Shown here in pieces: positions 1 to 10,905 of a stretch of DNA of 10,905 nucleotides (its first letter is position 1; each line of letters begins with the position of its first letter). The stretch is from an uncultured Lachnospira sp. GTDB taxonomy: Bacteria; Bacillota; Clostridia; Lachnospirales; Lachnospiraceae. The DNA lies in contig CAMVRH010000020.1 of the NCBI GenBank assembly GCA_947169835.1, positions 1 through 10,905 on the forward strand, written 5' to 3'. A model generated the notes under the pieces. The model was given only the letters and a program-made list of their open reading frames with translations. It ran no database searches and was not told the origin of the DNA. A program made the position numbers and the translations under genes.

Positions 1-551
1 ATCTTTTTACTATAGACTTTTTTCTTTCTTGCTTTTTTACCCTTTAGTTTTTTTGTAAATTTAACTTTAGGTTTTATTTTTAAACTCTCTCCTACACCCA
101 ATTTATAAACTTTTTTTACATTAGTAAATCTAGCAACATTTATTTTCTTAGACTTAGCATTTGTTGCCTTTACTTTTATCTTATAACTCTTTTTACTCTT
201 TGCTATTTCACCATTTATTTTTTTATAAGATTGTATTTTATAGCTATATGTTCTATTTAGTTTTACTTTCTTATCCTTATATGATGTTTTTGTTTTCTTT
301 AATTTTTTTATTTTTTTGCCGTTTTTAAATAGATAATACCCATTTACATTTACATCTTTTTTCCACCTTATCTTAATAACACCTTTGCTGGAGGTTCCTT
401 TAAAACTCAATGGGCTGTTAATAACATTAGGATTGCTTTGCTGCGTTTTCACATTAATAGTTTCTGCCATTATTAATTGCGCATTATACGATACCAGCAT
501 AATGTTTATTGATATTATGGTTGCAAATATTCTTATTACTACTGTTTTCAT
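1..551 (-). CDS. Secreted lysine-rich FN3-like protein (N-terminal part, cut by window edge)
   Basis: The reading frame opens at ATG 551 and stays open for 183 codons to the left edge, so the C-terminus is missing. Residues 1-29 are a signal peptide (MKTVVIRIFA, then a hydrophobic core), probably cut near IMA/ET. Residues about 46-130 look like a fibronectin type III module: IRW strand, then VNGYYLF, then TYSYKIQSY. This is the form common in surface proteins of Clostridia. Residues 137-183 (INVARFTNV, then LGVGESLKIKPKV) look like the start of an Ig-like (Big2-type) domain. About a quarter to a third of the residues are lysine. It is likely exported and cell-surface or cell-wall associated; the specific role is unknown. 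The ribosome binding site is weak (AAAGGA at 568-573, 16 nt from ATG). The gene lies 99 bp downstream of bioY in the same direction but probably has its own promoter. Confidence 0.8.
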   Translation of the reverse strand, partial: MKTVVIRIFATIISINIMLVSYNAQLIMAETINVKTQQSNPNVINSPLSFKGTSSKGVIKIRWKKDVNVNGYYLFKNGKKIKKLKKTKTSYKDKKVKLNRTYSYKIQSYKKINGEIAKSKKSYKIKVKATNAKSKKINVARFTNVKKVYKLGVGESLKIKPKVKFTKKLKGKKARKKKVYSKK

Positions 552-584
552 TTTCTTATAAAATAAATCCTTTAAATTTCTTCA

Positions 585-613
585 ACTGTAACACTAAATG
601 ATTGTAATATCAA
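585..613 (-). promoter_or_regulatory. Candidate promoter of the FN3-like gene
   Basis: On the minus strand TTGATA (608-613) is followed after 17 bp by TACAGT (585-590). The -35 matches 5 of 6 consensus bases and the -10 matches 4 of 6. Predicted start of transcription is near 578, just ahead of the weak AAAGGA ribosome site. Read-through from bioY is the alternative, since no clear terminator lies between the two genes. Confidence 0.3.
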
Positions 614-650
614 TTGTTAATCAAAGAGTTAATATGTCAACCCTCGGTAT

Positions 651-1226
651 TTATTTATCTATAATACTAGTCTTATTAACTTGTGTTGAAACTATTAAGG
701 CCACTATAATTTTTGCAAGATCTGGAATTATAAATGGAATAACGCAAGCAGAAATTGATGCTGCCAAACCCATATGCATTGGGTTGAATTGCCAAAACCA
801 AATAGTTCCAAAGATGAAACAAGCGATGTCACCTAGAACCATTCCAATTCCCAGATAAAGTGCTTTCATTTTATTATCTTTATCCTCCGATAGCTTTTTG
901 AAGATTCCGATTATTATTACTGTAAGGATAAAGCCTAGAATGTATCCGCCTGTCATTCCCGTCTCTGTGTTTGGAATGAATTTTACTATTCCAGATGAAA
1001 ATTCTGAGAACACTGGCACTCCTACTATTCCAAGAAGTATATATACGATTATTGCTATTGTTCCTCGCTTTAGTCCAAGTACTCCACCTGTCACACAAAC
1101 TGCAAATGTCTGTAGTGTGAATGGTACAGGGCCTAGTGGGATTGTAATCCATGTACACACAATGATTAGCGCTACAAATATCGCAATCATCGCTAAATCT
1201 CTAACTGATAAAAATTTCTTTTCCAT
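651..1226 (-). CDS. bioY: Biotin transporter BioY (ECF S component)
   Basis: This 191-aa, six-helix membrane protein binds biotin and imports it with the energy-coupling factor module (EcfA, EcfA', EcfT). Those partners are not in the window. Family signatures are clear: VPFTLQT at 34-40, GLKRG at 51-55, GVPVF at 69-73, GMTGGYILGF at 90-99, GxxxGD around 127-133, and PFIIPDLAK at 164-172. The length is normal for the family. The start at ATG 1226 is set by AGAGGA (1233-1238), 6 nt upstream. The gene is transcribed divergently from birA, and a BirA-like operator overlaps its -35 box, so it is expected to be repressed when biotin is plentiful. The identification is firm. No biotin synthesis genes (bioA, bioB, bioD, bioF) are seen nearby, which fits an organism that scavenges biotin, although the window is too small to prove this. 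Confidence 0.95.
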   Translation of the reverse strand: MEKKFLSVRDLAMIAIFVALIIVCTWITIPLGPVPFTLQTFAVCVTGGVLGLKRGTIAIIVYILLGIVGVPVFSEFSSGIVKFIPNTETGMTGGYILGFILTVIIIGIFKKLSEDKDNKMKALYLGIGMVLGDIACFIFGTIWFWQFNPMHMGLAASISACVIPFIIPDLAKIIVALIVSTQVNKTSIIDK

Positions 1227-1259
1227 ATCTTTTCCTCTTTTCTTTGTTTGCCAATGGAT

Positions 1260-1288
1260 ATTTTAGTCCCCTCACTTTCTATTGTCAA
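1260..1288 (-). promoter_or_regulatory. bioY promoter
   Basis: On the minus strand TTGACA (1283-1288) and TAAAAT (1260-1265) are separated by exactly 17 bp. This is a near-consensus Sigma-A promoter. Transcription should begin near 1253, giving a leader of about 27 nt that contains the bioY ribosome site. The -35 box lies inside the left arm of the BirA-like operator. Confidence 0.8.
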
Positions 1289-1312
1289 CCTTGTTTTTGA
1301 TTTGGCTAACAA
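1282..1312. promoter_or_regulatory. BirA-like operator between divergent bioY and birA promoters
   Basis: TTGTCAACC (1282-1290), 13 bp, then GGCTAACAA (1304-1312) form an inverted repeat with 7 of 9 arm positions paired. The arms resemble known BirA boxes of the type TTGTNAACC...GGTTNACAA (established for BirA regulons in Firmicutes and Proteobacteria). The left arm covers the bioY -35 box, and the right arm abuts the birA -35 box. An extra right-half-like copy (TTGCCAACAA, 1313-1322) follows directly and overlaps the birA -35. One BirA dimer here could therefore repress both genes. Binding is inferred from position and sequence. Confidence 0.75.
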
Positions 1313-1341
1313 TTGCCAACAATTAAGTGATGTGCTATACT
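1313..1341 (+). promoter_or_regulatory. birA promoter (extended -10)
   Basis: TTGCCA (1313-1318), 17 bp, then TATACT (1336-1341) preceded by TGC, which gives an extended -10. The expected transcription start, seven bases past the -10, is base 1348, which is the A of the birA ATG. The transcript is therefore predicted to have no 5' leader. Confidence 0.75.
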
Positions 1342-1347
1342 CTCGCT

Positions 1348-2322
1348 ATGAATGTTAAAGAGCAAGTTTTAAACCAACTAGAAAAGAATAAGGGAGAATA
1401 CATTTCTGGCGGCAGCCTATCCGAAGAGCTTGGTGTAAGTAGAAATGCTATTTGGAAAGCCATCCAAAGTTTGATTAAGGATGGTTATTTGATTGAGTCT
1501 AAATCTAGAAAAGGTTACCTTTTACAAGAAGATAGCGATATTTTATCTGCTCAAAGCATAAATAAATATTTAAAAAACGATTTAGATATAAAAGTTATCC
1601 CTACTTGTTCTTCTACTAACGATATGTTGGTAGATCTAGCTCACGATGGTGCAAAGGAAGGAACTGTGATTATATCCACAGAACAGACTAAGGGAAAAGG
1701 TAGAACAGGCAAGTCTTTTTACTCGCCAAAGGATACTGGAGTTTATATAAGTATACTTCTACGCCCTGATACATCACCTGAGGATTCTTTGTACTTTACT
1801 ACTATAGCTGCAGTGGCTACCGCCAAAGCAATAGAGAGCGTGTCTGATAAAAAGGCTGACATTAAATGGGTGAATGATGTTTATATAGAAGGAAAAAAAA
1901 TCTGTGGTATTTTGACAGAGGCTGCTCTTAGTATGGAGATGAACAAGTTAGATTACGCTGTGGTTGGAATAGGCATTAACATTACTCCACCAAAGGGTGG
2001 TTTTCCTAAAGACATAAAAAAAATTGCTACCACTGTTTTTGATAAAAAAGCTGATAGCAAAAATAAGACAAGTATTCTAGTAGCAAATCTACTCGACTAC
2101 TATATGGATTACTATAAATCAAATGATATGAAATCTCATTTGAAAGAATATATCAACCGCTCCAACATCATTGGCAAAAACATTGAAATTGAAAAAGGGA
2201 ATATGAAAATAAGAGCTAGAGCGATTGACATTGATTCTAAATGTAGGTTGAAAATCAAAGACGAAGAGGGGAAAGTATCTCTTCTATCATATGGTGAAGT
2301 CTCAATAGACATCCAAGACTAA
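1348..2322 (+). CDS. birA: Bifunctional biotin-protein ligase / biotin repressor BirA
   Basis: This 324-aa protein makes biotinyl-5'-AMP and transfers biotin to carrier lysines such as those of acyl-CoA carboxylases. With its corepressor bound, it also represses biotin genes. Residues 1-60 are a winged helix-turn-helix (ISGGSLSEELGVSRNAIWKAI at 19-39), so this is the DNA-binding class. The ligase core has STN (89-91), KGKGRTGKSF (115-124, the biotinyl-AMP loop, usually GRGRxGR), KWVNDV (173-178, usually KWPNDI), GKKICGIL (182-189, with the reactive-site lysine) and GIGIN (207-211). A C-terminal beta-barrel domain follows. A GTG in frame at 1327 would add MMCYTLA, but that stretch lies inside the promoter and has no ribosome site, so ATG 1348 is preferred. 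There is no Shine-Dalgarno before ATG 1348 either, because the -10 box is only 6 nt away. The BirA-like operator implies autoregulation. Confidence 0.93.
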   Translation: MNVKEQVLNQLEKNKGEYISGGSLSEELGVSRNAIWKAIQSLIKDGYLIESKSRKGYLLQEDSDILSAQSINKYLKNDLDIKVIPTCSSTNDMLVDLAHDGAKEGTVIISTEQTKGKGRTGKSFYSPKDTGVYISILLRPDTSPEDSLYFTTIAAVATAKAIESVSDKKADIKWVNDVYIEGKKICGILTEAALSMEMNKLDYAVVGIGINITPPKGGFPKDIKKIATTVFDKKADSKNKTSILVANLLDYYMDYYKSNDMKSHLKEYINRSNIIGKNIEIEKGNMKIRARAIDIDSKCRLKIKDEEGKVSLLSYGEVSIDIQD

Positions 2323-2349
2323 TCAGCTATATTTTTTCAAAATTAGTCT
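2316..2349. other. Inverted repeat between convergent birA and the pilus operon
   Basis: AGACTAAT (2316-2323, overlapping the birA stop) and ATTAGTCT (2342-2349) are perfect 8-bp complements around an 18-base, AT-rich loop. The site sits where the birA and pilus-operon transcripts converge, so it may act as a weak two-way terminator. There is no T-run directly after the stem on either strand, so termination is uncertain. Confidence 0.25.
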
Positions 2350-2368
2350 GCAAATAAAAGAAATCAAC

Positions 2369-2737
2369 CTACTCATAAATGGCACACTTTCTAACTGTAA
2401 TAGTTTTTTCTTTGCCATTTAAATATTTAAACGTCTGAGAGACTTTCACATCTAATAAACCATCTTTATAGTTAACGCCCATTACTTTGACGGAAATTTT
2501 TCCGTCACTTTTTATGTTTGTACATATAGTATTTATAAAATGGGCAACCATTTCCTTGTTTGACGTGATATCAGTTTGACCATCTGCATGGGAAGCTTTT
2601 ACAGTTTGCTTAACCGCTCCTGATACTGCTTTGTCCAGTTCATCTGCTCTAGAGTTTCTACTCTGCTCAGACAAAAGTGTCAAACTAATCAAAGTCACAA
2701 TGACTGCAATTCCTATAATTGTTATAAATTGTTTCAT
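2369..2737 (-). CDS. Small TadE/pseudopilin-like membrane-anchored protein, last gene of the pilus operon
   Basis: This 122-aa protein has one N-terminal hydrophobic helix (residues about 4-23) followed by a soluble domain that should lie outside the cell. The helix is followed by SRADELDKAVSGAVKQTVK (30-48), a polar, probably helical stretch, and then a mixed beta region. This is the shape of TadE-type minor pilins and pseudopilins, but no family signature was recognised with certainty, and the helix lacks a typical cleavage glycine plus Glu+5. ATG 2737 is set by AGGGGGAT in the end of the adhesin gene; the adhesin stop codon is 9 bp upstream. The tight junction implies co-expression with the adhesin. 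It may be a partner or anchor for the beta-helix protein; this is inferred from gene order. Confidence 0.8.
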   Translation of the reverse strand: MKQFITIIGIAVIVTLISLTLLSEQSRNSRADELDKAVSGAVKQTVKASHADGQTDITSNKEMVAHFINTICTNIKSDGKISVKVMGVNYKDGLLDVKVSQTFKYLNGKEKTITVRKCAIYE

Positions 2738-2746
2738 CTCATCCCC

Positions 2747-5269
2747 CTACTGCTTTTCTATGACTTTCCAAGAAACAATATAATTCATAGTGTGATCTAT
2801 CTTATGTCCATTCATTCTAATGTTATCTCTAAAAGCATCTTTATAATCTTCATCAAGTTCTACAGAATAAATGTAATCATCCTCATTGTTGAGTGATTTC
2901 ATAAGTTCACTTTTCTTCGCCCTATTCCACTTTGATCTAGGGTCAAGTGTGTTTACAAACTCTGCCGAAATGAATCTTACTTCTGTTTTGTCATAGTAAT
3001 CTTCTATAATATAAACTCTCATGGAACCAGAGCATGTGACAGAGCCACTCTCATTCGAAGACTCAAGATATATTTTATAATTGGCAGCTTTACTAGTATC
3101 AATATAGTTTTCCGTTTTCAAGTTAGAGCCCGTAGCCACAATCTTTCCATAGGTATCCACAATTTTTGTCACCCTTATTTTATATGTGATGGGAAGATTT
3201 AAATCGTTCTCAACTTTGACCTTCTTAGTAAGTTCCTCCGCCGTCAAAGTAATCTTTTGTCCTACCACATAATACCTATCAACAGGAAACATTGTTAGTG
3301 ACGATATCACCAATTCATCCCAGATAGCATAAAGAGTAGTATCTGAAGAAATCAATGTATCAATTCCTGGCTTCATTACTGCTCCAGTGCCATCTGCTGA
3401 CAAATTCCAATGCTTATTTACGTTCAAGACAAACCCAATGCGGCTAACAATATTGTCGTTTACTTTATACTTTTCACTCCAAAAAGCGATTTCATCTTTT
3501 GGAAGATTAGCCACTTCATCTAGTGAATTACCATTATATTTAACATCATATCGTTCGCTAATAATGATGTATCTAGAGGAATCAAACGAAGTGTTTTTAT
3601 TTGTAGGTCGGAGTGTATAGCCACCCTTTGCAGCAAACTTTTTAGTTACATCTTGTCCATTTGCTTCCGCGTCACCAGATCCTTCGTAGTACAATTCATC
3701 TTCGGCGTTCATTTGGCCGTAACATACGTCAACCAATATTGTTCCTTTAGTTTTAACTTCTGAATCAATATATGAAACCAGAATGTTTGATACCTTGATT
3801 GCTCCTGTAATATCTATGTGTTTTCCTTTAGGCAAATATACAGTGTTGTTTGAATTAACATATCCCATATTTGACAGTTCGAGAATACCACCTTGGTACA
3901 CTCCCTCACCTTTATTTGCAGTATTGCTTTCTATAACACTGCTAGGCATTTTAAGTGTTCCCGTATCTGAAATTGAAACTCCTCCACCTACATTTGCCTC
4001 ATTATTCTTAATTGTACAATCTGTTATTTTTACAGCAGTATTTACATATATTCCTCCACCGCCTGTGGATGTTTTGTTTCCAGTAATAGTAGTGTTAGTA
4101 ATAGGAACTTCATCTGTAGTTTTTCCTTTGGCGCCCTCGGAAAAGTTGATGCCACCGCCAGACTGAGCAGCTGTGTTGTTAGTGATCTTTAGATTTGATA
4201 TCACAACTTTTGACGCACAACCACTACTAGGTTTTCCGATTGATATACCACCACCTGATACATCAGTCCGATTTCCTGTGATGGTTCCACCATTAAATGT
4301 GCTAGTGCCTCCTGACTCACTACTTCCTCCGTTACACCTAATACCTCCACCACTTTTCTTGGCGTAGTTATTAGATATTGTAGGGCCGGAGCCATTCACA
4401 CCGCACGAAAATGTTGAGTGATTTCCCGCAAACACTCCACCACCAGTCTCACCGGCAGTGTTGCTATAAATACTACCTTTTTCTATTATCAAGCCACTCT
4501 CGGTAACAAATATACCTCCGCCTTCTTCAGCGGACTGGTTACTGTAGATAGAGCCTCCGTTCATAGTTATGGTCGCAAAATCTCTTCCATATATAGCTCC
4601 GCCTTCTGTTCCAGATTTGCAACCGTGAATCTTAGATCCATTGTAGAGATTTACTCCTCCAGCCAAACACTTAATGGCTCCACCATTATTACCTTCGCAA
4701 TTAGATATTTCGCCTTTAACCTCCACCACTCCATATGCTCTAATAGGAGCAGCTTCGTCAGTCCTCATAGTATTCTTTGCGTTTGTAAAAACACAGTTAG
4801 TGCCAATAGTCAATGTGGCATTCGTCGCGACATAGAAAAATTCATGACACTGTCTACTATCAGTAAAGTAATTTTTTGATCCATTAAGCGTCAGCTTATA
4901 AGATGTGGCCGCATAACCCCACTCTATTTCTGTAGTTCCATCTATCTTTATGCAACGAAGCGGTTTCGACGAAGAATTTACAGTAGCACTCATGCTCTGC
5001 GAACGTCTAATAGTCTTATTTCCACCACTGGCATAAATCCTAAATTTTCCTTTAGATACGGTAATAGTCTCTGTTATAGCTGCTGTGTCTGTGACAGCTA
5101 TGTACTTCCACGAAGTAGTTCCTTTGGACAAGGCTTCTTTCAGTTCACTGCCAGTAGTCACAATATATGGACTGCTGCTTGTTCCGCTTCCCGTCAAAGC
5201 CTTCACTTCTTTTTTATAAACACACACTACAAATAGTGCGAACATAAGCATTAATAATATTTTTTTCAT
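2747..5269 (-). CDS. Secreted right-handed beta-helix adhesin-like protein of the pilus operon
   Basis: This 840-aa protein begins with a signal peptide (MKKILLMLMF, cleavage likely after VKA at 22-24). Residues about 170-465 form a parallel beta-helix: GG[G]-[AIV] turns recur at 197, 223, 250, 276, 307, 339, 371, 404 and 428, each rung rich in Asn, Ser and Thr. This is the pectate-lyase-like repeat found in surface adhesins. Residues about 573-651 resemble an InlB B-repeat/Flg_new unit, ending in TTLYAIW (644-650). Residues 652-840 are a further beta-rich region and a charged tail of unknown type. There is no LPXTG motif, C-terminal membrane helix or cell-wall-binding repeat. The start overlaps the previous stop as ATGA, so translation is coupled to the pseudopilin gene. 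The likely role is a displayed adhesin of the pilus. No catalytic residues of polysaccharide lyases could be identified. Confidence 0.88.
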   Translation of the reverse strand: MKKILLMLMFALFVVCVYKKEVKALTGSGTSSSPYIVTTGSELKEALSKGTTSWKYIAVTDTAAITETITVSKGKFRIYASGGNKTIRRSQSMSATVNSSSKPLRCIKIDGTTEIEWGYAATSYKLTLNGSKNYFTDSRQCHEFFYVATNATLTIGTNCVFTNAKNTMRTDEAAPIRAYGVVEVKGEISNCEGNNGGAIKCLAGGVNLYNGSKIHGCKSGTEGGAIYGRDFATITMNGGSIYSNQSAEEGGGIFVTESGLIIEKGSIYSNTAGETGGGVFAGNHSTFSCGVNGSGPTISNNYAKKSGGGIRCNGGSSESGGTSTFNGGTITGNRTDVSGGGISIGKPSSGCASKVVISNLKITNNTAAQSGGGINFSEGAKGKTTDEVPITNTTITGNKTSTGGGGIYVNTAVKITDCTIKNNEANVGGGVSISDTGTLKMPSSVIESNTANKGEGVYQGGILELSNMGYVNSNNTVYLPKGKHIDITGAIKVSNILVSYIDSEVKTKGTILVDVCYGQMNAEDELYYEGSGDAEANGQDVTKKFAAKGGYTLRPTNKNTSFDSSRYIIISERYDVKYNGNSLDEVANLPKDEIAFWSEKYKVNDNIVSRIGFVLNVNKHWNLSADGTGAVMKPGIDTLISSDTTLYAIWDELVISSLTMFPVDRYYVVGQKITLTAEELTKKVKVENDLNLPITYKIRVTKIVDTYGKIVATGSNLKTENYIDTSKAANYKIYLESSNESGSVTCSGSMRVYIIEDYYDKTEVRFISAEFVNTLDPRSKWNRAKKSELMKSLNNEDDYIYSVELDEDYKDAFRDNIRMNGHKIDHTMNYIVSWKVIEKQ

Positions 5270-5610
5270 CTCGCATACCCCTCTATAACTGCTTGCTTTG
5301 AATAGTCAGTTCCAAATAAACTAAAAACTGGAAGGCTGACATAATAAGTAAGCGTTACGTATTTGCTAGGCTGATCTTCATATACAGTTACATCCTCTAC
5401 ATTCAAATCATAACCTTTACTTTCTGCATCACTTTTACATTCGTTTATTACTTGGTCGCTATAATTACTGTCCTCGATTCGATTTACTACAACATTATAG
5501 TAATCTCTCGCATAGCAGTTTTGATTGTTGCTGCTAATGATCGAGGTAAATAGCACGCACGCCAAAGTAATTGCTATCACTATCGAAAATACTTCTATAG
5601 CTATCTTCAT
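5266..5610 (-). CDS. TadE-like pseudopilin
   Basis: This protein of 114 aa (ATG 5610) starts with a hydrophobic helix (residues about 4-24, MKIAIEVFSIVIAITLACVL), directly followed by a soluble domain with many Tyr and Asn residues and two Cys. It ends SLFGTDYSKQAVIEGYAR. An N-terminal membrane stem with an external C-terminal domain is typical of TadE-like minor pilins. An alternative GTG at 5622 adds MVKS, but GGTGGTG lies at a good distance ahead of ATG 5610, so 5610 is preferred. Its stop overlaps the adhesin start by four bases (ATGA). The role is likely a minor pilin or pseudopilin that primes or caps the fibre, or links the adhesin to it. The family is assigned on architecture and context, not on a firm motif. 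Confidence 0.8.
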   Translation of the reverse strand: MKIAIEVFSIVIAITLACVLFTSIISSNNQNCYARDYYNVVVNRIEDSNYSDQVINECKSDAESKGYDLNVEDVTVYEDQPSKYVTLTYYVSLPVFSLFGTDYSKQAVIEGYAR

Positions 5611-5640
5611 ACTTTTCACCACCCATCTTCTCTAGCAGTT

Positions 5641-6042
5641 TCATTCAACTACTACATTTACATACTTCGTACATACCAAATTGTTGGAACGCACAACACA
5701 TTTCATTCTATAAATATTTTTTCTAAGTACATCTACTTTGCCAAAGACCTTTAAGTCATCCGTTATATCTTTACCTGTGTAATCTTTGGCTTTTACATAA
5801 TCTTCGAACACAAAATTTGTATCCTTGTAATCTGCATATATTACATCGTCACTCTCAATGGTTGGGTATTTGTCCTTTACACCATGTGCAAACTCCTTGT
5901 TGGATGGGCTCAACTCCGTTTTGTAGCTGGGAGAAATATGTTTCCATTTTCCGTTGCACACAAGACAAATCAAGCAAACTAACATAATACCAACAACTCC
6001 ATACAGAATGGCTTCTCCATGTTCTCCTAACAATAAACTCAT
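5641..6042 (-). CDS. Mini-pilin-like stem fused to an Ig-like (Big_3-type) domain
   Basis: This 133-aa protein begins M-x5-E-H-G (MSLLLGEHG) and then a hydrophobic helix to about residue 29, the same start as three shorter products of the operon. Residues about 58-133 resemble a bacterial Ig-like domain of the Big_3/DUF5011 kind: a YPTI strand, DYVKAKDYTGKDIT (82-95), KVFGKVDVLRKNIYRMKCVV (98-117), and a final VNVVVE strand. In that family the G-x-VD and Y-x-[VM] pattern marks the core strands; the match is from memory of the pattern. The start is set by GGAAGGGGG. It sits 16 bp after the 45-aa mini-pilin gene. It may be a pilin subunit carrying an exposed binding or spacer domain. Confidence 0.85.
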   Translation of the reverse strand: MSLLLGEHGEAILYGVVGIMLVCLICLVCNGKWKHISPSYKTELSPSNKEFAHGVKDKYPTIESDDVIYADYKDTNFVFEDYVKAKDYTGKDITDDLKVFGKVDVLRKNIYRMKCVVRSNNLVCTKYVNVVVE

Positions 6043-6058
6043 TTAATCCCCCTTCCTA

Positions 6059-6196
6059 TTATCCGAGCAACGTTCCAATAGAACTTAAATCCATATTTCC
6101 CATCACTTGAATAACTAGAAACATTATTACAATTGTCATAATTGCAACTATTCCACTCACCAATGTCCCTCCATGTTCTAAAATAAATTGTTCCAT
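6059..6196 (-). CDS. 45-aa mini-pilin-like protein (EHG family)
   Basis: This short frame starts at ATG 6196 and encodes 45 aa: M-x5-E-H-G (MEQFILEHG), a Gly-containing hydrophobic helix (residues about 10-31), and a short tail ending SSIGTLLG. It has a good ribosome site (GGAAGGAG) that overlaps the stop of the preceding 34-aa gene. The start aligns without gaps with the other three EHG proteins. It is expected to be a single-pass membrane peptide. Assignment as a Flp-like pilin subunit rests on size, placement after the platform protein, and the shared E-x-G-before-helix pattern. It lacks the Glu at +5 that marks classical Flp and type IV pilins. Confidence 0.8.
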   Translation of the reverse strand: MEQFILEHGGTLVSGIVAIMTIVIMFLVIQVMGNMDLSSIGTLLG

Positions 6197-6209
6197 ACTC
6201 TTCTCCTTC

Positions 6210-6314
6210 CTAGCCTGTTATCACATTTAACACTTGATAAAATGCTGCGGCCAAACAAACGAAAATGATTCCAAACACTATACACTGTCCCAATTCTGAC
6301 ACTAAAATTTTCAT
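6210..6314 (-). CDS. 34-aa mini-pilin-like protein (ELG variant)
   Basis: This very short frame starts at ATG 6314 behind a perfect AAGGAGGT site and encodes 34 aa. It starts MKILVSELG, so Glu7 and Gly9 fall at the same positions as in the other three operon members, with Leu in place of His8. A hydrophobic helix (residues 11-27) and a short tail, NVITG, follow. The gap to the platform gene is 19 bp, and the next gene starts 13 bp after its stop. The strong ribosome site and conserved start argue that it is real despite its size. If Gly9 is a processing site, the mature peptide would be only 25 aa. Function beyond a membrane or pilin-like peptide is unknown. Confidence 0.75.
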   Translation of the reverse strand: MKILVSELGQCIVFGIIFVCLAAAFYQVLNVITG

Positions 6315-6333
6315 AGTTTACCTCCTTGCATTA

Positions 6334-7644
6334 TTAATTGATTGCATTTCCAATAGATGTTGTAAACACCATTATCATCAAAACCATATCTATCATTATC
6401 TTTACTATTCCAACTATCATAGGAACAGTGGCTAGCATAGATGCTGCTCCTATTTGATCTTGATTCTTCATCTCCTCTGCGTGGCCAGCCAACTTGTTAT
6501 TCCTATCCAAAATGGAATTGATTTGCTGATCAGATTGTTCTTTTCCCAATTCGTTTATGGAATAGAACATCTTCATCGAAGACTTGATTTCGTCTAGGTC
6601 AAATTCCTTTAATAGATTGTCATAAGGCTCAATGCCTACTGGATATTTTTCAAAATCTAAAAGCAGTTTTCTGATAGGTCTTTGCAGGATAAACGGTGAA
6701 TTCTCGTATGAGTTTTCAATGGCTGATTGAACAGTATCATTTTGCAAATTGATTGCCACTTCTCTAATCCAATCAGGAAAGTACTTTGATAGCTCTTTCT
6801 CCATCCTCCTCTTAGCACTTTTGTACGAGAGTTTTTCACTCCAACTAAGTGAGTCATAATCTTCATATCCTTTTTCTACCAAGTTGTAATATCGCATCAC
6901 TTGATTGTTGTTTAGCGTCTGCTCTTCTCTCAACCAGTCGATATTCATTTTTTTGACAATGAGTAAATATGAACCCATCATCATAAGAAGCATTATGGTA
7001 GAAGCTATTTGATAAACAAGATTTGGCGTGTAACTATATTCCGACGGCACAATGTATGCCATAAAGCCACAAGTGATTACCGTTGAAAAAACTGAAATCA
7101 AAACATTTCGTTTTACACGTTCCACATTTTTAATAAACAAAAGTGTTCTATCATTCCAGTCTTTTATATCTTTGAGTAGGATATCTATATAGTCGTCGTA
7201 CTCTCCTCCGTGTTCTTCTATCTTTATCAAAAACTTGTGAAGAGACTTAATTCTTTTACACTTGTACTCCTTTTCAATTAAACTTAGTGATTCCTCGTAA
7301 ATATTTTCCGATTCTTTTGTGTCTATATTTACTATCACTTCCTCTAGCAATTCTTTGACTTCGCTAGATCCAATCTTTTGTGCATCCTGCAAAGCTAGTC
7401 TAATCTTTGGCTGCTTCTTGAACGAATAGATCATCTGCTCCATATACATAACAGCATCTTTGAAGCGCTCGAACAGTCTTTTTCTTTTTATCTCTTCCCT
7501 TTGATAAAAGTAATTAAACACGACGCCCGCACACATACATAAAATAATGGAAATAATATTTAATCTGTATGCTAGACAAATACCTAATATTATCAATAAT
7601 ACTTTCGCTGAATCTTTAATCAGCCCTAAAACTTTTCTTTTCAA
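6334..7644 (-). CDS. TadB/TadC-like (T2SF) inner-membrane platform protein
   Basis: This 436-aa protein is predicted to be the membrane platform on which the ATPase acts to push pilin subunits into a fibre. Hydrophobic segments lie at about 13-27, 31-48, 180-199, 210-231 and 398-428. Between them are two cytoplasmic helical regions (about 50-178 and 235-395), as in TadB/TadC and GspF proteins. The position between the CpaF-type ATPase and the pilin genes supports the call. Canonical Tad systems encode two separate platform proteins of about 300 aa, TadB and TadC; here one longer protein seems to stand for both. The start is TTG 7644, supported by GGGGGAG six bases upstream. The next Met (residue 37) would remove a helix. 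The sequence is divergent, so the family is assigned on topology and context. Confidence 0.82.
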   Translation of the reverse strand: MKRKVLGLIKDSAKVLLIILGICLAYRLNIISIILCMCAGVVFNYFYQREEIKRKRLFERFKDAVMYMEQMIYSFKKQPKIRLALQDAQKIGSSEVKELLEEVIVNIDTKESENIYEESLSLIEKEYKCKRIKSLHKFLIKIEEHGGEYDDYIDILLKDIKDWNDRTLLFIKNVERVKRNVLISVFSTVITCGFMAYIVPSEYSYTPNLVYQIASTIMLLMMMGSYLLIVKKMNIDWLREEQTLNNNQVMRYYNLVEKGYEDYDSLSWSEKLSYKSAKRRMEKELSKYFPDWIREVAINLQNDTVQSAIENSYENSPFILQRPIRKLLLDFEKYPVGIEPYDNLLKEFDLDEIKSSMKMFYSINELGKEQSDQQINSILDRNNKLAGHAEEMKNQDQIGAASMLATVPMIVGIVKIMIDMVLMIMVFTTSIGNAIN

Positions 7645-7667
7645 AATTTTCTCCCCCGCAAATGGTT

Positions 7668-8684
7668 TTAGTTTTCACTTTTCACAAACGGATCATTTAT
7701 TCCTGCCAGTTTAAACTTTCTAAGCAAATCCTCTGGCAAATCCTTTGTCAAAATTTTTCCATCTTCATATATCATTATTTTTTCATTTTTCTCTTCATTT
7801 CTAGACAAGCACATCACTTGCGATATCCTTCGCGTGATCTTTTCTCCTTCTTTTACAACTGATTCCAACTGAACAACTAAGTTTATGAAGGAGTAAACAT
7901 CGTTTTCATTTATGGCTTGCCCCATATTTCGCAGTCGGTCAGGAGTCTTGCTAGAATCATCTAGATGGAGTGTAGTCAGACAAGATACTCCTGCCGAAAT
8001 ATTCTCCAACAAATATTTAACTTCCTCTCCTCTAGCCTCCGCCAACAAGACCCATGTAGGTAACTGTCTCTTACTAGCCTTCAAAGCATCCGAATAGCCG
8101 AAACTATCACTTATTTTTATTTCTACACAATCTTTTCCTGGATTGATGGCTGAATATCTTAATTCTAAATTATCCTCTATCGTATATACTCGTTCATAAG
8201 GAGGTATATAATTCGTGAGGTATTTGACATACTCCGTTTTTCCTACCCCCGGCAATCCCCCTACGACTACAGTGCAATGAGCCTTAATCGCATTTTCCAT
8301 GAAAGTATCTATATCCTCACTGCAGTAATTATCGTTTATCATACTGTCCCTGTTGATACGTCTTACTGCTGGAGTCTTTCTAATACTAATGGATATACCA
8401 GTATTCGTAACCGAATCATGTAAAATTGATATTCTTAGATTATCAGTCTCGGCTTCTAATAGCGGATTATTGACATTAAATTGTACATTCATAAGGTTAC
8501 TGATCTTTGTATAAAATTGTTGAATAAAACTTTCATCCAACAGAAAGCCATCTATTTTATACCTACCCTTTTCAAGGTGATTAACCCATAACCCCTGGCT
8601 CCAATTTATATCCGTGATATTATCATCCAAAATATACTCTAATAGATTTCCAAATGCCCTATTTGGCAATGTAAGTTTTCTCAT
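7668..8684 (-). CDS. cpaF: CpaF/TadA-type pilus assembly ATPase
   Basis: This 338-aa secretion ATPase of the GspE/VirB11 superfamily powers pilin assembly at the cytoplasmic face of the membrane. Visible motifs: GISISIRK (96-103) before the nucleotide-binding domain; Walker A GLPGVGKT (143-150); an Asp-box-like TIEDNLEL (168-175); a Walker-B-like stretch WVLLAEARGEE (211-221, CpaF normally has VGEVRGxE); and a His box TTLHLDD (237-243). All core catalytic positions appear present. It is shorter than typical CpaF (over 400 aa) and lacks most of the N-terminal extension. ATG 8684 follows AGGAGAAG. The gap to the first mini-pilin gene is 28 bp, and 23 bp separate it from the platform gene. Confidence 0.92.
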   Translation of the reverse strand: MRKLTLPNRAFGNLLEYILDDNITDINWSQGLWVNHLEKGRYKIDGFLLDESFIQQFYTKISNLMNVQFNVNNPLLEAETDNLRISILHDSVTNTGISISIRKTPAVRRINRDSMINDNYCSEDIDTFMENAIKAHCTVVVGGLPGVGKTEYVKYLTNYIPPYERVYTIEDNLELRYSAINPGKDCVEIKISDSFGYSDALKASKRQLPTWVLLAEARGEEVKYLLENISAGVSCLTTLHLDDSSKTPDRLRNMGQAINENDVYSFINLVVQLESVVKEGEKITRRISQVMCLSRNEEKNEKIMIYEDGKILTKDLPEDLLRKFKLAGINDPFVKSEN

Positions 8685-8712
8685 ACTTTCTTCTCCTGAC
8701 CCTGCTTACTTC

Positions 8713-8886
8713 TTAGTGAATCTTTCCTGCTACAGTATCGTATGAAACTGAGCTTGAGTAGCTATTTACTACGCCTTCAACTGCATCAGCAATAATTGGG
8801 CCAACTACATAAGCTACACCTACTAGAAGTAAAATACATACGGCAATAAAAATTGTTTTGCCATGTTCTTGTAGAAATACATCCAT
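8713..8886 (-). CDS. 57-aa mini-pilin-like protein, first gene of the pilus operon
   Basis: This frame, too short for many gene callers, starts at ATG 8886 and encodes 57 aa. It begins M-x5-E-H-G (MDVFLQEHG), followed by a hydrophobic helix (residues about 11-32) and a soluble tail rich in Ser and Val (about 33-57). The ribosome site is AAAGGGGG, 10 nt upstream. As the promoter-proximal gene next to the ATPase, it is a good candidate for the main pilin subunit. The E-x-G followed by a helix resembles the ESG-ATAIEYG region of Flp pilins, but there is no Glu at +5. The other three EHG proteins lie downstream in the same operon. Confidence 0.85.
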   Translation of the reverse strand: MDVFLQEHGKTIFIAVCILLLVGVAYVVGPIIADAVEGVVNSYSSSVSYDTVAGKIH

Positions 8887-9034
8887 GGTGATTTATCCCC
8901 CTTTCCTCACTATTCCATAATCACAACATCTCTAAAGGTATCTTGAACAGAACAATTGCAACAATTTTGTCTTTTACAATATGCAACATTTACTAAATAT
9001 CACATCACTTATGCAATCCGTTGCGTTTATGGTA
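8887..9034 (-). promoter_or_regulatory. Long untranslated leader of the pilus operon with repeated TTGCA boxes
   Basis: This is the stretch between the predicted transcription start and the first ribosome site. On the minus strand TTGCA occurs at 9012-9016, 8982-8986 and 8957-8961, and a GCAACGGATTGC mini-hairpin lies at 9013-9024. No known riboswitch was recognised; in particular the conserved cores of the cyclic-di-GMP-I class are missing. No terminator-like hairpin with a T-run is present. A role in regulation is only suggested by the length. Together with 9070-9164, where nothing was recognised, this accounts for the 327-bp gene-free stretch. Confidence 0.35.
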
Positions 9035-9040
9035 AGACGA

Positions 9041-9069
9041 ATGATACCACTTCGATTTTTGAGTGTCAA
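9041..9069 (-). promoter_or_regulatory. Promoter of the pilus operon
   Basis: On the minus strand a perfect TTGACA (9064-9069) is separated by 17 bp from TATCAT (9041-9046, 5 of 6 consensus bases). Predicted transcription start is near 9034, leaving about 148 nt of untranslated leader before the first mini-pilin ATG at 8886. No other promoter of similar quality was seen closer to the gene. Confidence 0.75.
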
Positions 9070-9164
9070 CAAAAATTTCAAAAAAAGATCAACTTTTTTA
9101 TCAAAGGTCACTCGCTCGTAAAAAACTTGATTTGTTCCTTCTTTTTGTGCGACTTTTGAGCAAT

Positions 9165-9199
9165 AAAAAAAGGACAGTCGTCATTGACGACTGTCCTTT
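9165..9199 (-). terminator. Strong Rho-independent terminator after the CobL-like gene
   Basis: AAAGGACAGTCGTCA (9169-9183) and TGACGACTGTCCTTT (9185-9199) are perfect 15-bp complements around a single central base, so the real loop is formed by the innermost pairs. Read on the minus strand, the stem is followed by seven T residues (9165-9171, the last overlapping the stem). It ends transcription of the CobL-like gene and insulates the pilus promoter 96 bp further on. Confidence 0.93.
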
Positions 9200-9213
9200 A
9201 CTATCATCTTTTT

Positions 9214-10125
9214 TTATTCAGAATCTACCTCACCAGTAATCAACCATGGACTAGGCTGTGCCACGAACACACTGTTCTTATCTGTCTTTGAAACAGAAAT
9301 CTGCATTACTTCTGTTACTTTGACGCCGCACTGTTCCATAATGTATTTGATCTCTGATAGAACATCTAACTCTAATGTCCAGAAGATAAACTTACAGTTT
9401 GGATTAACCTTTAGGATACTCTCGATATCCTTTCTGATCTCGCCCTTCTTGGCAACGATAAATGCAAGACGAGGAACTGGAAGGTTCTTTAATGTCTCTT
9501 CTTCTAAGTCTGTTATAACTTCTACGTTATGAACTCCAAACTTATCTATGTTTTCTTCCATAGTACGCTTAGAACCAGCATCACGCTCATCAGCTATAAT
9601 AACACCCTCGTAAGCTATCATAGATGCTTCAATAACAACTGACTCAGCATCTACCATAAGGATAGTATCTCTGATATCTACTTCTAGTTTATTCATGATG
9701 ACTGATCTAATCTCGTGGCCCACATACTTAACTGTACCGTGCGAGAAGTTGTCATTCTTCATACCAAAAATCATTCCCTCACGAGTATCATCATTTACGA
9801 TAAAGATAACTGTAGGTCCAGAAATTGGTTCATCCATCATATCACTTACTTTGCAGTGCTTCATCTCAGATGGTTCGTAGCCTTCGCCGTAGTACATCTC
9901 GTAATCGCCAAAGCCTGCCTCCCAACATTTATAAAGCATGTTTGGATATGTCTCATCTGCAAAAATAAGAAGTCTCTTATGCGTAGAAACTAAAGCAAGA
10001 TAATTTCTTCTCTTACCACACAAGTTTGCAATCTTTATTTTTTCTGGAGTAACGCCCTGTAGCTCAGCTACATAGCCCATCCAATCTAGCATTTGTTGAT
10101 TAGTATATTTTACTTCTTCGCTCAT
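9214..10125 (-). CDS. Degenerate CobL/CbiE-CbiT-like protein, probably not an active methyltransferase
   Basis: This 303-aa protein follows the layout of the corrin-pathway methyltransferase CobL (CbiE fused to CbiT), but decayed. Residues about 42-118 resemble only the second half of CbiE (CWEAGFGD at 67-74, then YYGEGYEPSEMKH at 78-90, GPTVIFIVND at 103-112); the SAM-binding first half is gone. Residues about 119-299 follow CbiT: FGMKNDNFSHG (120-130), HEIRSVIMNKL (137-147), VVIEASMIA (163-171), DERDAGSKRTMEENIDKFG (179-197), QISVSK (275-280), PWLITGE (293-299). The glycine-rich SAM loop DxGxGxGS of CbiT is missing, replaced by MVDAES (157-162), and the later GGSGG is AKKGE (225-229). The likely role is structural or regulatory; the true function is unknown. 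ATG 10125 follows GGGAGGAAATT. No other cobalamin gene is present. Confidence 0.8.
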   Translation of the reverse strand: MSEEVKYTNQQMLDWMGYVAELQGVTPEKIKIANLCGKRRNYLALVSTHKRLLIFADETYPNMLYKCWEAGFGDYEMYYGEGYEPSEMKHCKVSDMMDEPISGPTVIFIVNDDTREGMIFGMKNDNFSHGTVKYVGHEIRSVIMNKLEVDIRDTILMVDAESVVIEASMIAYEGVIIADERDAGSKRTMEENIDKFGVHNVEVITDLEEETLKNLPVPRLAFIVAKKGEIRKDIESILKVNPNCKFIFWTLELDVLSEIKYIMEQCGVKVTEVMQISVSKTDKNSVFVAQPSPWLITGEVDSE

Positions 10126-10158
10126 AATTTCCTCCCGGACATATAATTCACTATTAGT

Positions 10159-10186
10159 ATTCTATCACAATTATTTTAGTTTCCAA
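10159..10186 (-). promoter_or_regulatory. Candidate promoter of the CobL-like gene
   Basis: On the minus strand TTGGAA (10181-10186, inside the end of the upstream gene) and TAGAAT (10159-10164) are separated by 16 bp. The -35 match is modest. Predicted start is near 10152, 26 nt before the ATG. Co-transcription with the upstream membrane-protein gene (45-bp gap) is an equally good alternative. Confidence 0.3.
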
Positions 10187-10869
10187 AATGCTTTGTCGTG
10201 CTGGGTAAACTTCACAAAATTAAAACCTTTTGATTTGTAGAAAGTTCCAGCCTTCATGCACTGTGGGAATATCGTATGGATAATGTCGTTATAGAAAATA
10301 TCCGCTATACAAATTCCACCAAGCACATAAGCAATTCCTAAGAAAACTTTTCTATTCATCTTTTTAGCGAGCCACATAATAGCTGGCACAATCACATACA
10401 CAACAAACGGCCCCGCCAAAGTAAATGCAATAATATTTCTACCGCAAATAAATCCGCCAATATTTCCAAGGGTCCAAATCTCTTCGTTGTAGTTCCACTC
10501 TCTTCTTCCGTTGTCCAAGTAGTAGATTGCCATACCTGCAATCAACTCCATCAAAGATAAAACTACACCGCTTATCAAGGCTACTAGCCATGGTTTTTTT
10601 CTAAATTTGTAAGTTAAAGCGAATGCTGCCACTGCTCCAAGACCGTAAATGTCAATCCATGGTCCAAAAGCATTTCCTCGCCAAAACCACATATCTTTCC
10701 CATCTCTAATTAGCGCATTTAGATGATAAAAGTTTATCTCAATAATAAACCCAAAAACAGCCATACTCACAAACAAGAGTAGCACTATGGCTACCCATGT
10801 TTTTTTATCAAAAACCATACTGTTATTTATATAGTTTTTGTATTTAATTTTAAACTGTCCCTTTGCCAT
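10171..10869 (-). CDS. CmpB-type integral membrane protein (putative ABC transporter permease, PF06541-like)
   Basis: This 232-aa protein has about six hydrophobic segments, beginning near residue 25. The core matches the family called ABC_trans_CmpB: GNAFGPWIDIYGLGA (65-79), FRKKPW (88-93), a MELIAGM helix (106-112), and RREWNYNEEIWTLGNIGGFI (122-141), in which Trp-Asn-Tyr and Gly-x-I are the usual landmarks. Members are widespread in Firmicutes; transport substrates are not established and no ABC ATPase is beside it here, so the permease label is only a family name. ATG 10869 lies 11 nt from AAGGAG. The C-terminal tail (about 205-232) is soluble and rich in Lys and Phe. Confidence 0.8.
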   Translation of the reverse strand: MAKGQFKIKYKNYINNSMVFDKKTWVAIVLLLFVSMAVFGFIIEINFYHLNALIRDGKDMWFWRGNAFGPWIDIYGLGAVAAFALTYKFRKKPWLVALISGVVLSLMELIAGMAIYYLDNGRREWNYNEEIWTLGNIGGFICGRNIIAFTLAGPFVVYVIVPAIMWLAKKMNRKVFLGIAYVLGGICIADIFYNDIIHTIFPQCMKAGTFYKSKGFNFVKFTQHDKAFWKLK

Positions 10870-10875
10870 TAAAGG

Positions 10876-10905
10876 TTATTCTCCTTGCAAATATTTTTGA
10901 AGCAT
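10876..10905 (-). CDS. Possible last codons of an upstream gene (cut by window edge)
   Basis: Reading on the minus strand from the right edge gives MLQKYLQGE and then TAA at 10876-10878, six bases before the start of the CmpB-type gene. The ribosome site of that gene lies inside this frame, as is common in operons. With only nine codons visible, the frame could also be chance. Confidence 0.25.
   Translation of the reverse strand: MLQKYLQGE

Follow-up and report, generated by a model that had tools for sequence, protein, structure and literature searches.

Described systems and the operon analyzed

The subunits of type IV pili are described, in the portion of PMC5389465 used here, as always being precursors that require a cut by the prepilin peptidase. 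In the part of their report used here, Imam et al. 2011 (PMC3244431) presented Tad-like loci without any prepilin motif in C. kluyveri, C. cellulolyticum, C. bolteae, C. sp. L2-50 and D. hafniense. Here we describe an operon located in a stretch of 10,905 nucleotides from an uncultured Lachnospira sp. (GenBank assembly GCA_947169835.1, contig CAMVRH010000020.1, positions 1 to 10,905), the whole of which is hereafter called the window. The operon encodes a CpaF-type ATPase, a platform protein and four proteins of 57, 34, 45 and 133 amino acids (aa), whose N-termini share a nine-residue motif with Glu7 and Gly9 (E7 and G9), here called the tag. On the basis of sequence comparisons, we are slightly inclined to regard the operon as a reduced Tad-like type IV filament machine with a retained tag. 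A literature search found no paper whose title or abstract describes such a tagged set.

All coordinates refer to the whole window, and the operon lies entirely on its minus strand, where the gene order is the 57-aa protein, the ATPase (338 aa), the platform protein (436 aa), and the proteins of 34, 45, 133, 114, 840 and 122 aa. The gene of the 57-aa protein (8713..8886; nine-codon tag 8860..8886), a candidate main subunit consisting of the tag MDVFLQEHG, a helix and a tail, is located upstream of the ATPase gene. The three other tagged proteins are encoded downstream of the platform gene: the 34-aa protein (6210..6314; tag 6288..6314) begins with MKILVSELG and the 45-aa protein (6059..6196; tag 6170..6196) with MEQFILEHG, each followed by a helix, and the 133-aa protein (5641..6042; tag 6016..6042) carries MSLLLGEHG, a helix and a predicted Ig-like domain. 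All four frames, with the starts given in the first-pass annotation of this DNA, were confirmed on the minus strand, although the range assigned there to the family (6059-8886) omits the 133-aa frame. A Shine-Dalgarno-like stretch precedes each of them.

The ATPase (7668..8684) was described as CpaF/TadA/VirB11-like from its match to PF00437 (66.8 bits, E 1.8e-18, cut-off 24.9), from a score of 63.9 bits against the curated model TIGR03819, which is far under the cut-off of 373.15, and from structure-profile matches to 2oap (type II secretion), VirB11 and CpaF. The platform protein (6334..7644) is a membrane protein of the GspF/TadC type, for which Foldseek returned nothing at E <= 0.001; a sequence search in the PDB gave no match of worth (best E 0.63). 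Two of the features that characterize a Tad/Flp (type IVc, T4c) pilus, a TadA/CpaF-type ATPase and a platform of the GspF/TadB/TadC kind, are present in the operon. A search of PHROGs gave nothing useful.

Conservation of the tag within the genus

The operon was found in 20 of the 23 genomes of the genus, including the genome of the window, with ATPase relatives of 76-100% identity, one of which is a fragment; the three remaining genomes (G004, G005 and G011) hold distant ATPase relatives only. Wherever the sequence of a locus includes their place, the tagged genes are present. Both E7 and G9 are kept in 19/19 copies of the 57-aa protein (a count that lacks locus L051, which ends before that gene), 19/20 copies of the 34-aa protein, and 20/20 copies each of the 45-aa and 133-aa proteins. 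The two residues, proposed to be fixed in the first-pass annotation, are therefore present in 78 of the 79 copies, the sole exception being a 34-aa protein with D7. The same annotation restricted position 8 to His or Leu, which proved too narrow, as the 34-aa proteins of the genus have L, A, T or S at this position.

The ratio of nonsynonymous to synonymous substitution rates (dN/dS), pooled from pairwise comparisons in the closest clade of 7 or 8 genomes, was 0.049 for the 57-aa, 0.112 for the 34-aa, 0.160 for the 45-aa and 0.052 for the 133-aa protein; the values for the ATPase and the platform protein in the same clade were 0.039 and 0.026, respectively. Because these values (0.05-0.16) are far below 1, the four short frames are coding and under purifying selection.

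Recurrence of the tag beyond the genus

Among the 397 family genomes scanned with a profile of the platform protein, 50 gave a match, and these represent 43 of 334 genera. Additionally, a class-wide draw of 391 genomes gave five matches, namely the genome of the window, one more member of the family, two strong matches in other families (G764 and G535) and one marginal match. Named records with a platform match were Lachnospira sp. UBA3790, a Eubacterium sp., metagenome-assembled genomes of Eubacteriaceae and Lachnospiraceae, and Anaerostipes hominis BG01. Judging from these matches, the system appears to be nearly confined to Lachnospiraceae among the sampled genomes. Other ATPase loci, in G084, G381, G149, G096 and G411, proved to belong to different systems. 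A total of 51 operon loci was used for the comparisons, 49 of which were assigned to 39 genera (with 6 loci from the genus of the window) and 2 of which came from named records.

Short N-terminal membrane frames were called in 49 operon loci with a procedure blind to the motif, which accepts the first start codon that a ribosome-site-like stretch precedes, overlooks some true starts and miscalls the 45-aa frame of the window. E7 together with G9 was found in 88 of 253 such frames, and 87 of these 88 sit among the 173 frames of four classes defined by size and place; in 33 control loci the combination was found in 0 of 150 frames, and in 0 of 116 under an equal length limit. The conservation of the two residues is thus beyond chance. 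The loci were also scanned with the pattern M-x2-hydrophobic-hydrophobic-x-[EDQ]-[YHFW]-[GAS] followed by a helix, which was composed after inspection of the data and excludes the 34-aa protein of the genus, whose position 8 is non-aromatic. This pattern gave 151 frames on the operon strand, distributed over all 51 loci (~334,029 strand-bases scanned), 0 frames on the opposite strand of the operons, and 2 frames in 39 other loci, which together amount to 871,664 strand-bases. One frame per locus was found in 6 loci, two in 6, three in 23 and four in 16, so that 39 of the 51 loci have three or four; one of the 151 frames, in L204, appears spurious. As for their lengths, 38 frames are <=41 aa, 79 are 42-69 aa and 33 are >=130 aa.

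The consensus over the 151 frames is M-K-E-[IF]-[LI]-E-E-[YH]-G, with M-K-E-I-[LI]-E-E-Y-G as the commonest residues. Position 7 is E in 119 frames, position 8 is Y in 111, which makes Tyr the commonest residue there outside the genus, and position 9 is G in 141, A in 6 and S in 4. When the profile of the 57-aa class was compared with those of the 34-aa and 133-aa classes, the probability was 96% and the alignment covered residues 1-26 only, in accordance with the earlier statement that the sequences are unrelated after the helix; the agreement at residues 1-9 is partly built in, because the members of the alignments had been selected for the tag. The 57-aa protein has 558 database relatives; among the best 120, which lean toward one subgroup, a Pfam domain was present in none, and most of the names given are "hypothetical protein". 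The first-pass annotation had taken the fixed spacing to suggest a single recognition signal, and had named recurrence near CpaF genes in related genomes and purifying selection among the points on which this should be judged. Both came out in its favor: the short frames are coding and conserved, and they have in common an N-terminal signal of constant spacing, next to a gene for a CpaF-type ATPase.

A tandem pair of copies of the 57-aa class, with E-N-G in the place of E-Y-G, was observed upstream of the ATPase gene in two loci (L159 2121-2554 and L160 2421-2780, both on the plus strand).

The tag and its possible cleavage

In the following, residue 10 is counted as +1, as in a protein cut after Gly9. 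A Glu at +5 is broadly lacking, as had been noticed for the four proteins of the window: it occurs in 2 of 129 G9 proteins from the motif-blind caller, in 4 of 141 pattern frames with G9, and in 0 of the best 120 of the 558 relatives of the 57-aa protein. Residue 10 is frequently G, K, E, S, P or D in the 151 pattern frames. Among the best 120 relatives of the 57-aa class, 69 have Pro at +1, whereas over all classes 13 of the 151 frames do; we counted this Pro against cutting, its hindrance of cleavage by a prepilin peptidase of the A24 family being presumed. In 10 of the 151 frames the Gly of position 9 is replaced by Ala or Ser, which weakens the cleavage register. Across genera, conservation is highest in the tag and lower in what follows, and two partner proteins of the operon (114 and 122 aa) have no leader, which was also counted for a retained tag. 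No A24 gene was found near the platform gene in the 50 genomes: in 46 there was none on the same contig, some contigs being short, and in G019, G150, G184 and G349 the gene lies >900 kb away. Taken together, we consider it somewhat probable that the tag is retained on the protein.

We also considered that the tag might be the mature Flp motif E5-Y6-G7 of proteins born leaderless. This idea was raised because Flp pilins have Glu+5 and Tyr+6, as described in part of PMC3244431, and because position 8 is mostly aromatic; it was judged less likely on the grounds that a hydrophobic stretch of ~20 residues follows Gly9 and that Gly9 falls on the leader Gly of Flp in a global profile alignment (probability 10%).

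The 133-aa protein was modeled with the tag and a helix at residues 2-29 and a domain at ~61-132 (predicted local distance difference test score, pLDDT, of 88). The Foldseek matches of this model include the Big_3 domain 2kpn (E 5.7e-5), and an Ig-like Pfam match was found in 5 of 29 members of the 133-aa class, the protein of the window being without one. By the model, the outer domain would be Ig-like.

Proposed organization and alternative explanations

The reduced Tad-like machine would be built from a single ATPase, a single platform protein and a set of tiny pilin-like subunits, in most cases three or four, that share the N-terminal tag. The tag would form a short acidic and amphipathic segment on the cytoplasmic face of the membrane. 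Directly after it comes the only membrane helix of the protein, which would place the C-terminus outside. The tag might serve as an address that lets the platform protein or the ATPase recognize every subunit of the set, in line with the first-pass annotation, which had named a peptidase or docking on the platform as what the signal might be for; the 57-aa protein would be the main subunit. Least certain is the idea that the tag stays and that acidic residues near the start take over the role that Glu5 has in ordinary pilins. The fuller version of this proposal, a family-wide filament machine that works without any cleavage of its subunits by a prepilin peptidase, in which the retained nine residues, acidic at positions 6 and 7, replace the free N-terminus and Glu5, and in which the 34-aa protein is a conserved subunit, seems to us nearly as likely to be right as wrong.

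Several observations weigh against a retained tag, most of them by speaking for the alternative that the proteins are type IV prepilins whose class III leader is short and acidic and is removed after Gly9 by an A24 peptidase, either an orphan or one supplied by a canonical Tad locus. If cleavage occurs there, and only then, mature proteins of 25-48 aa would result for three of the four, and these would be assembled without Glu5. The hydrophobic stretch begins directly after Gly9, as in cleaved pilins, so that of the features of a class III signal, Gly9 followed by a helix is present, but the leader is acidic and +1 is often charged or Pro. Gly9 is in register with the leader glycine of Flp in a global profile alignment, weakly so with a probability of only 10%, and a local comparison with 12 Flp proteins of the same bacteria (72%) covered the C-terminal part only. 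Flp-type proteins of the fetched loci likewise have E-x-G before the helix, some of them as F-L-K-D-E-S-G. Some A24 peptidase is present in 50/50 genomes of the family, in 23/23 genomes of the genus and in both operon-bearing genomes outside the family; because all operon-bearing genomes have an A24 gene, and many of those in the family adjoin canonical Tad-type ATPases, this presence is of little weight outside the genus. Within it, the genome of the window has an orphan A24 gene on contig 13 (L068 6500-6934), flanked by ilvC and regulatory genes, whose product of 144 aa carries the motifs D...IPN and GMGD. Such an ilvC-linked orphan with both catalytic motifs occurs in 12 of the 20 genomes that have the operon and in none of the 3 that lack it, a weak association among related genomes (one-sided P ~0.09), with the orphan of G008, G013, G014 and G022 assigned through its place near ilvC and not through close sequence. 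G010, G018 and G020 (completeness of 89%, 76% and 96%, respectively) have no PF00437 protein above the cut-off other than the operon ATPase and no A24 protein other than the orphan, so that the orphan is kept where no other Tad-type ATPase was found; its dN/dS is 0.19 (five genomes). A second orphan copy in G002 has a stop codon, and the surroundings of an A24 gene on contig 31 of G001 could not be placed. It also tells against the retained tag, as we propose it, that the class alignments and lists showing the tag best contain members picked by the tag, and that the outside position of the C-terminus is drawn solely from the Ig-like domain of the model. Against cleavage stand the rarity of Glu+5, the frequent Pro, Lys or Glu at +1, the Ala or Ser at position 9, the lack of a peptidase gene near the operon, and the 8 of 20 operon-bearing genomes without an ilvC-linked orphan; on balance, we consider cleavage possible but doubtful.

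Another reading is that the tagged proteins do not build a filament but are small, stationary membrane components of an apparatus for secretion, or of a conjugation-like one, through which the operon's large secreted protein would be exported. The presence of VirB11 among the best profile matches of the ATPase, the very small size of the subunits, and the large frames with signal-like starts that lie downstream in loci of the genus and in some others would agree with this, but a CpaF-type ATPase and a GspF-type platform suit filament assembly, no further conjugation gene was found among the operon proteins scanned against Pfam and NCBIfam, and a large secreted gene was not observed in all of the loci listed, which makes such an apparatus improbable. 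Finally, none of the short operon proteins had a match of weight in Pfam or NCBIfam, as would be expected of untranslated frames whose motif arises from constraints of another kind; nevertheless, dN/dS values of 0.05-0.16 with many synonymous changes, the Shine-Dalgarno-like sites and conservation at the protein level across genera render this explanation hardly conceivable.

Other genes of the operon and of the window

The 114-aa protein (5266..5610), counted from a conserved ATG (MKIAIEVF...), is a putative TadE-like protein without a leader, so described from its place and from the Glu at its sixth residue; a start at GTG 5622, in the same frame, would give 118 aa, and scans against Pfam and NCBIfam gave no match of weight. 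In the TadE-like class of the window and 34 operon loci, residue 6 is Glu or Lys, a charge reversal near the position of Glu5 in pilins, and the two forms separate perfectly by gene order (17/17 each way).

The 840-aa protein (2747..5269), with a signal-peptide-like start and repeats, had a weak match to PF02415 (Chlam_PMP, E 0.0047) below the family cut-off. Frames of 751-921 aa occupy the place of its gene in 18 loci of the genus, the window counted; its dN/dS is 0.123 and its proportion of nonsynonymous differences (pN) is the highest among the operon genes. This repeat protein is likely a surface adhesin. The last gene of the operon (2369..2737) encodes a leaderless protein of 122 aa (MKQFITIIG...) with its membrane segment at the N-terminus.

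Upstream of the operon, a protein of 303 aa (9214-10125) had zero Pfam matches at E <= 1, and the upstream neighbor of the operon varies in some relatives. At the other end of the window, positions 651-1226 encode what we take to be a BioY-like membrane protein, adjoining a presumed BirA-like biotin ligase/repressor (1327-2322).

Comparison with known systems

The system adds a set of conserved proteins of ~32-70 aa to the genomes of Lachnospiraceae, and it gives annotators short tagged frames to seek beside CpaF-type genes. Moreover, a system of gut bacteria that spans many genera and has several tagged proteins, no nearby peptidase and a rare Glu5 makes the rule that pilus subunits are always cut directly testable.

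The Tad/Flp (type IVc) loci of Gram-positive bacteria, as described in part of PMC3244431, resemble the operon in having a CpaF/TadA-type ATPase, a TadC/GspF-type platform and tiny pilin-like proteins of one helix with E-x-G before it. Here, by contrast, there is no A24/TadV gene near the locus, scans of the operon proteins of the window against Pfam and NCBIfam gave no match to TadZ or RcpC, and the ATPase scores far under the TIGR03819 cut-off. Whereas Tad has TadB plus TadC and one Flp, the operon has one platform protein and several tagged proteins in which Glu+5 is rare, and a Pfam scan of 39 proteins from the 57-aa class gave no match to an Flp model at E <= 0.01. Because the Flp family, a nearby TadV and Glu5 are all wanting, the set is probably a variant of the Tad-like kind of type IV filament and not a Tad pilus proper.

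With the motif-less loci of Imam et al., compared by published description only, the operon shares its occurrence in Clostridia, its Tad-like character and the apparent absence of the usual prepilin motif; those loci are reported, in the part of the paper used, with tadV, tadZ and rcpC, none of which was recognized here, although the two groups may overlap. The competence (Com) pilus, as presented in part of PMC10191384, is likewise a minimal machine of monoderm bacteria with an ATPase, a platform and several small pilin-like proteins; its pilins are cut by ComC, and the ATPase of the operon described here differs in being CpaF/VirB11-like.

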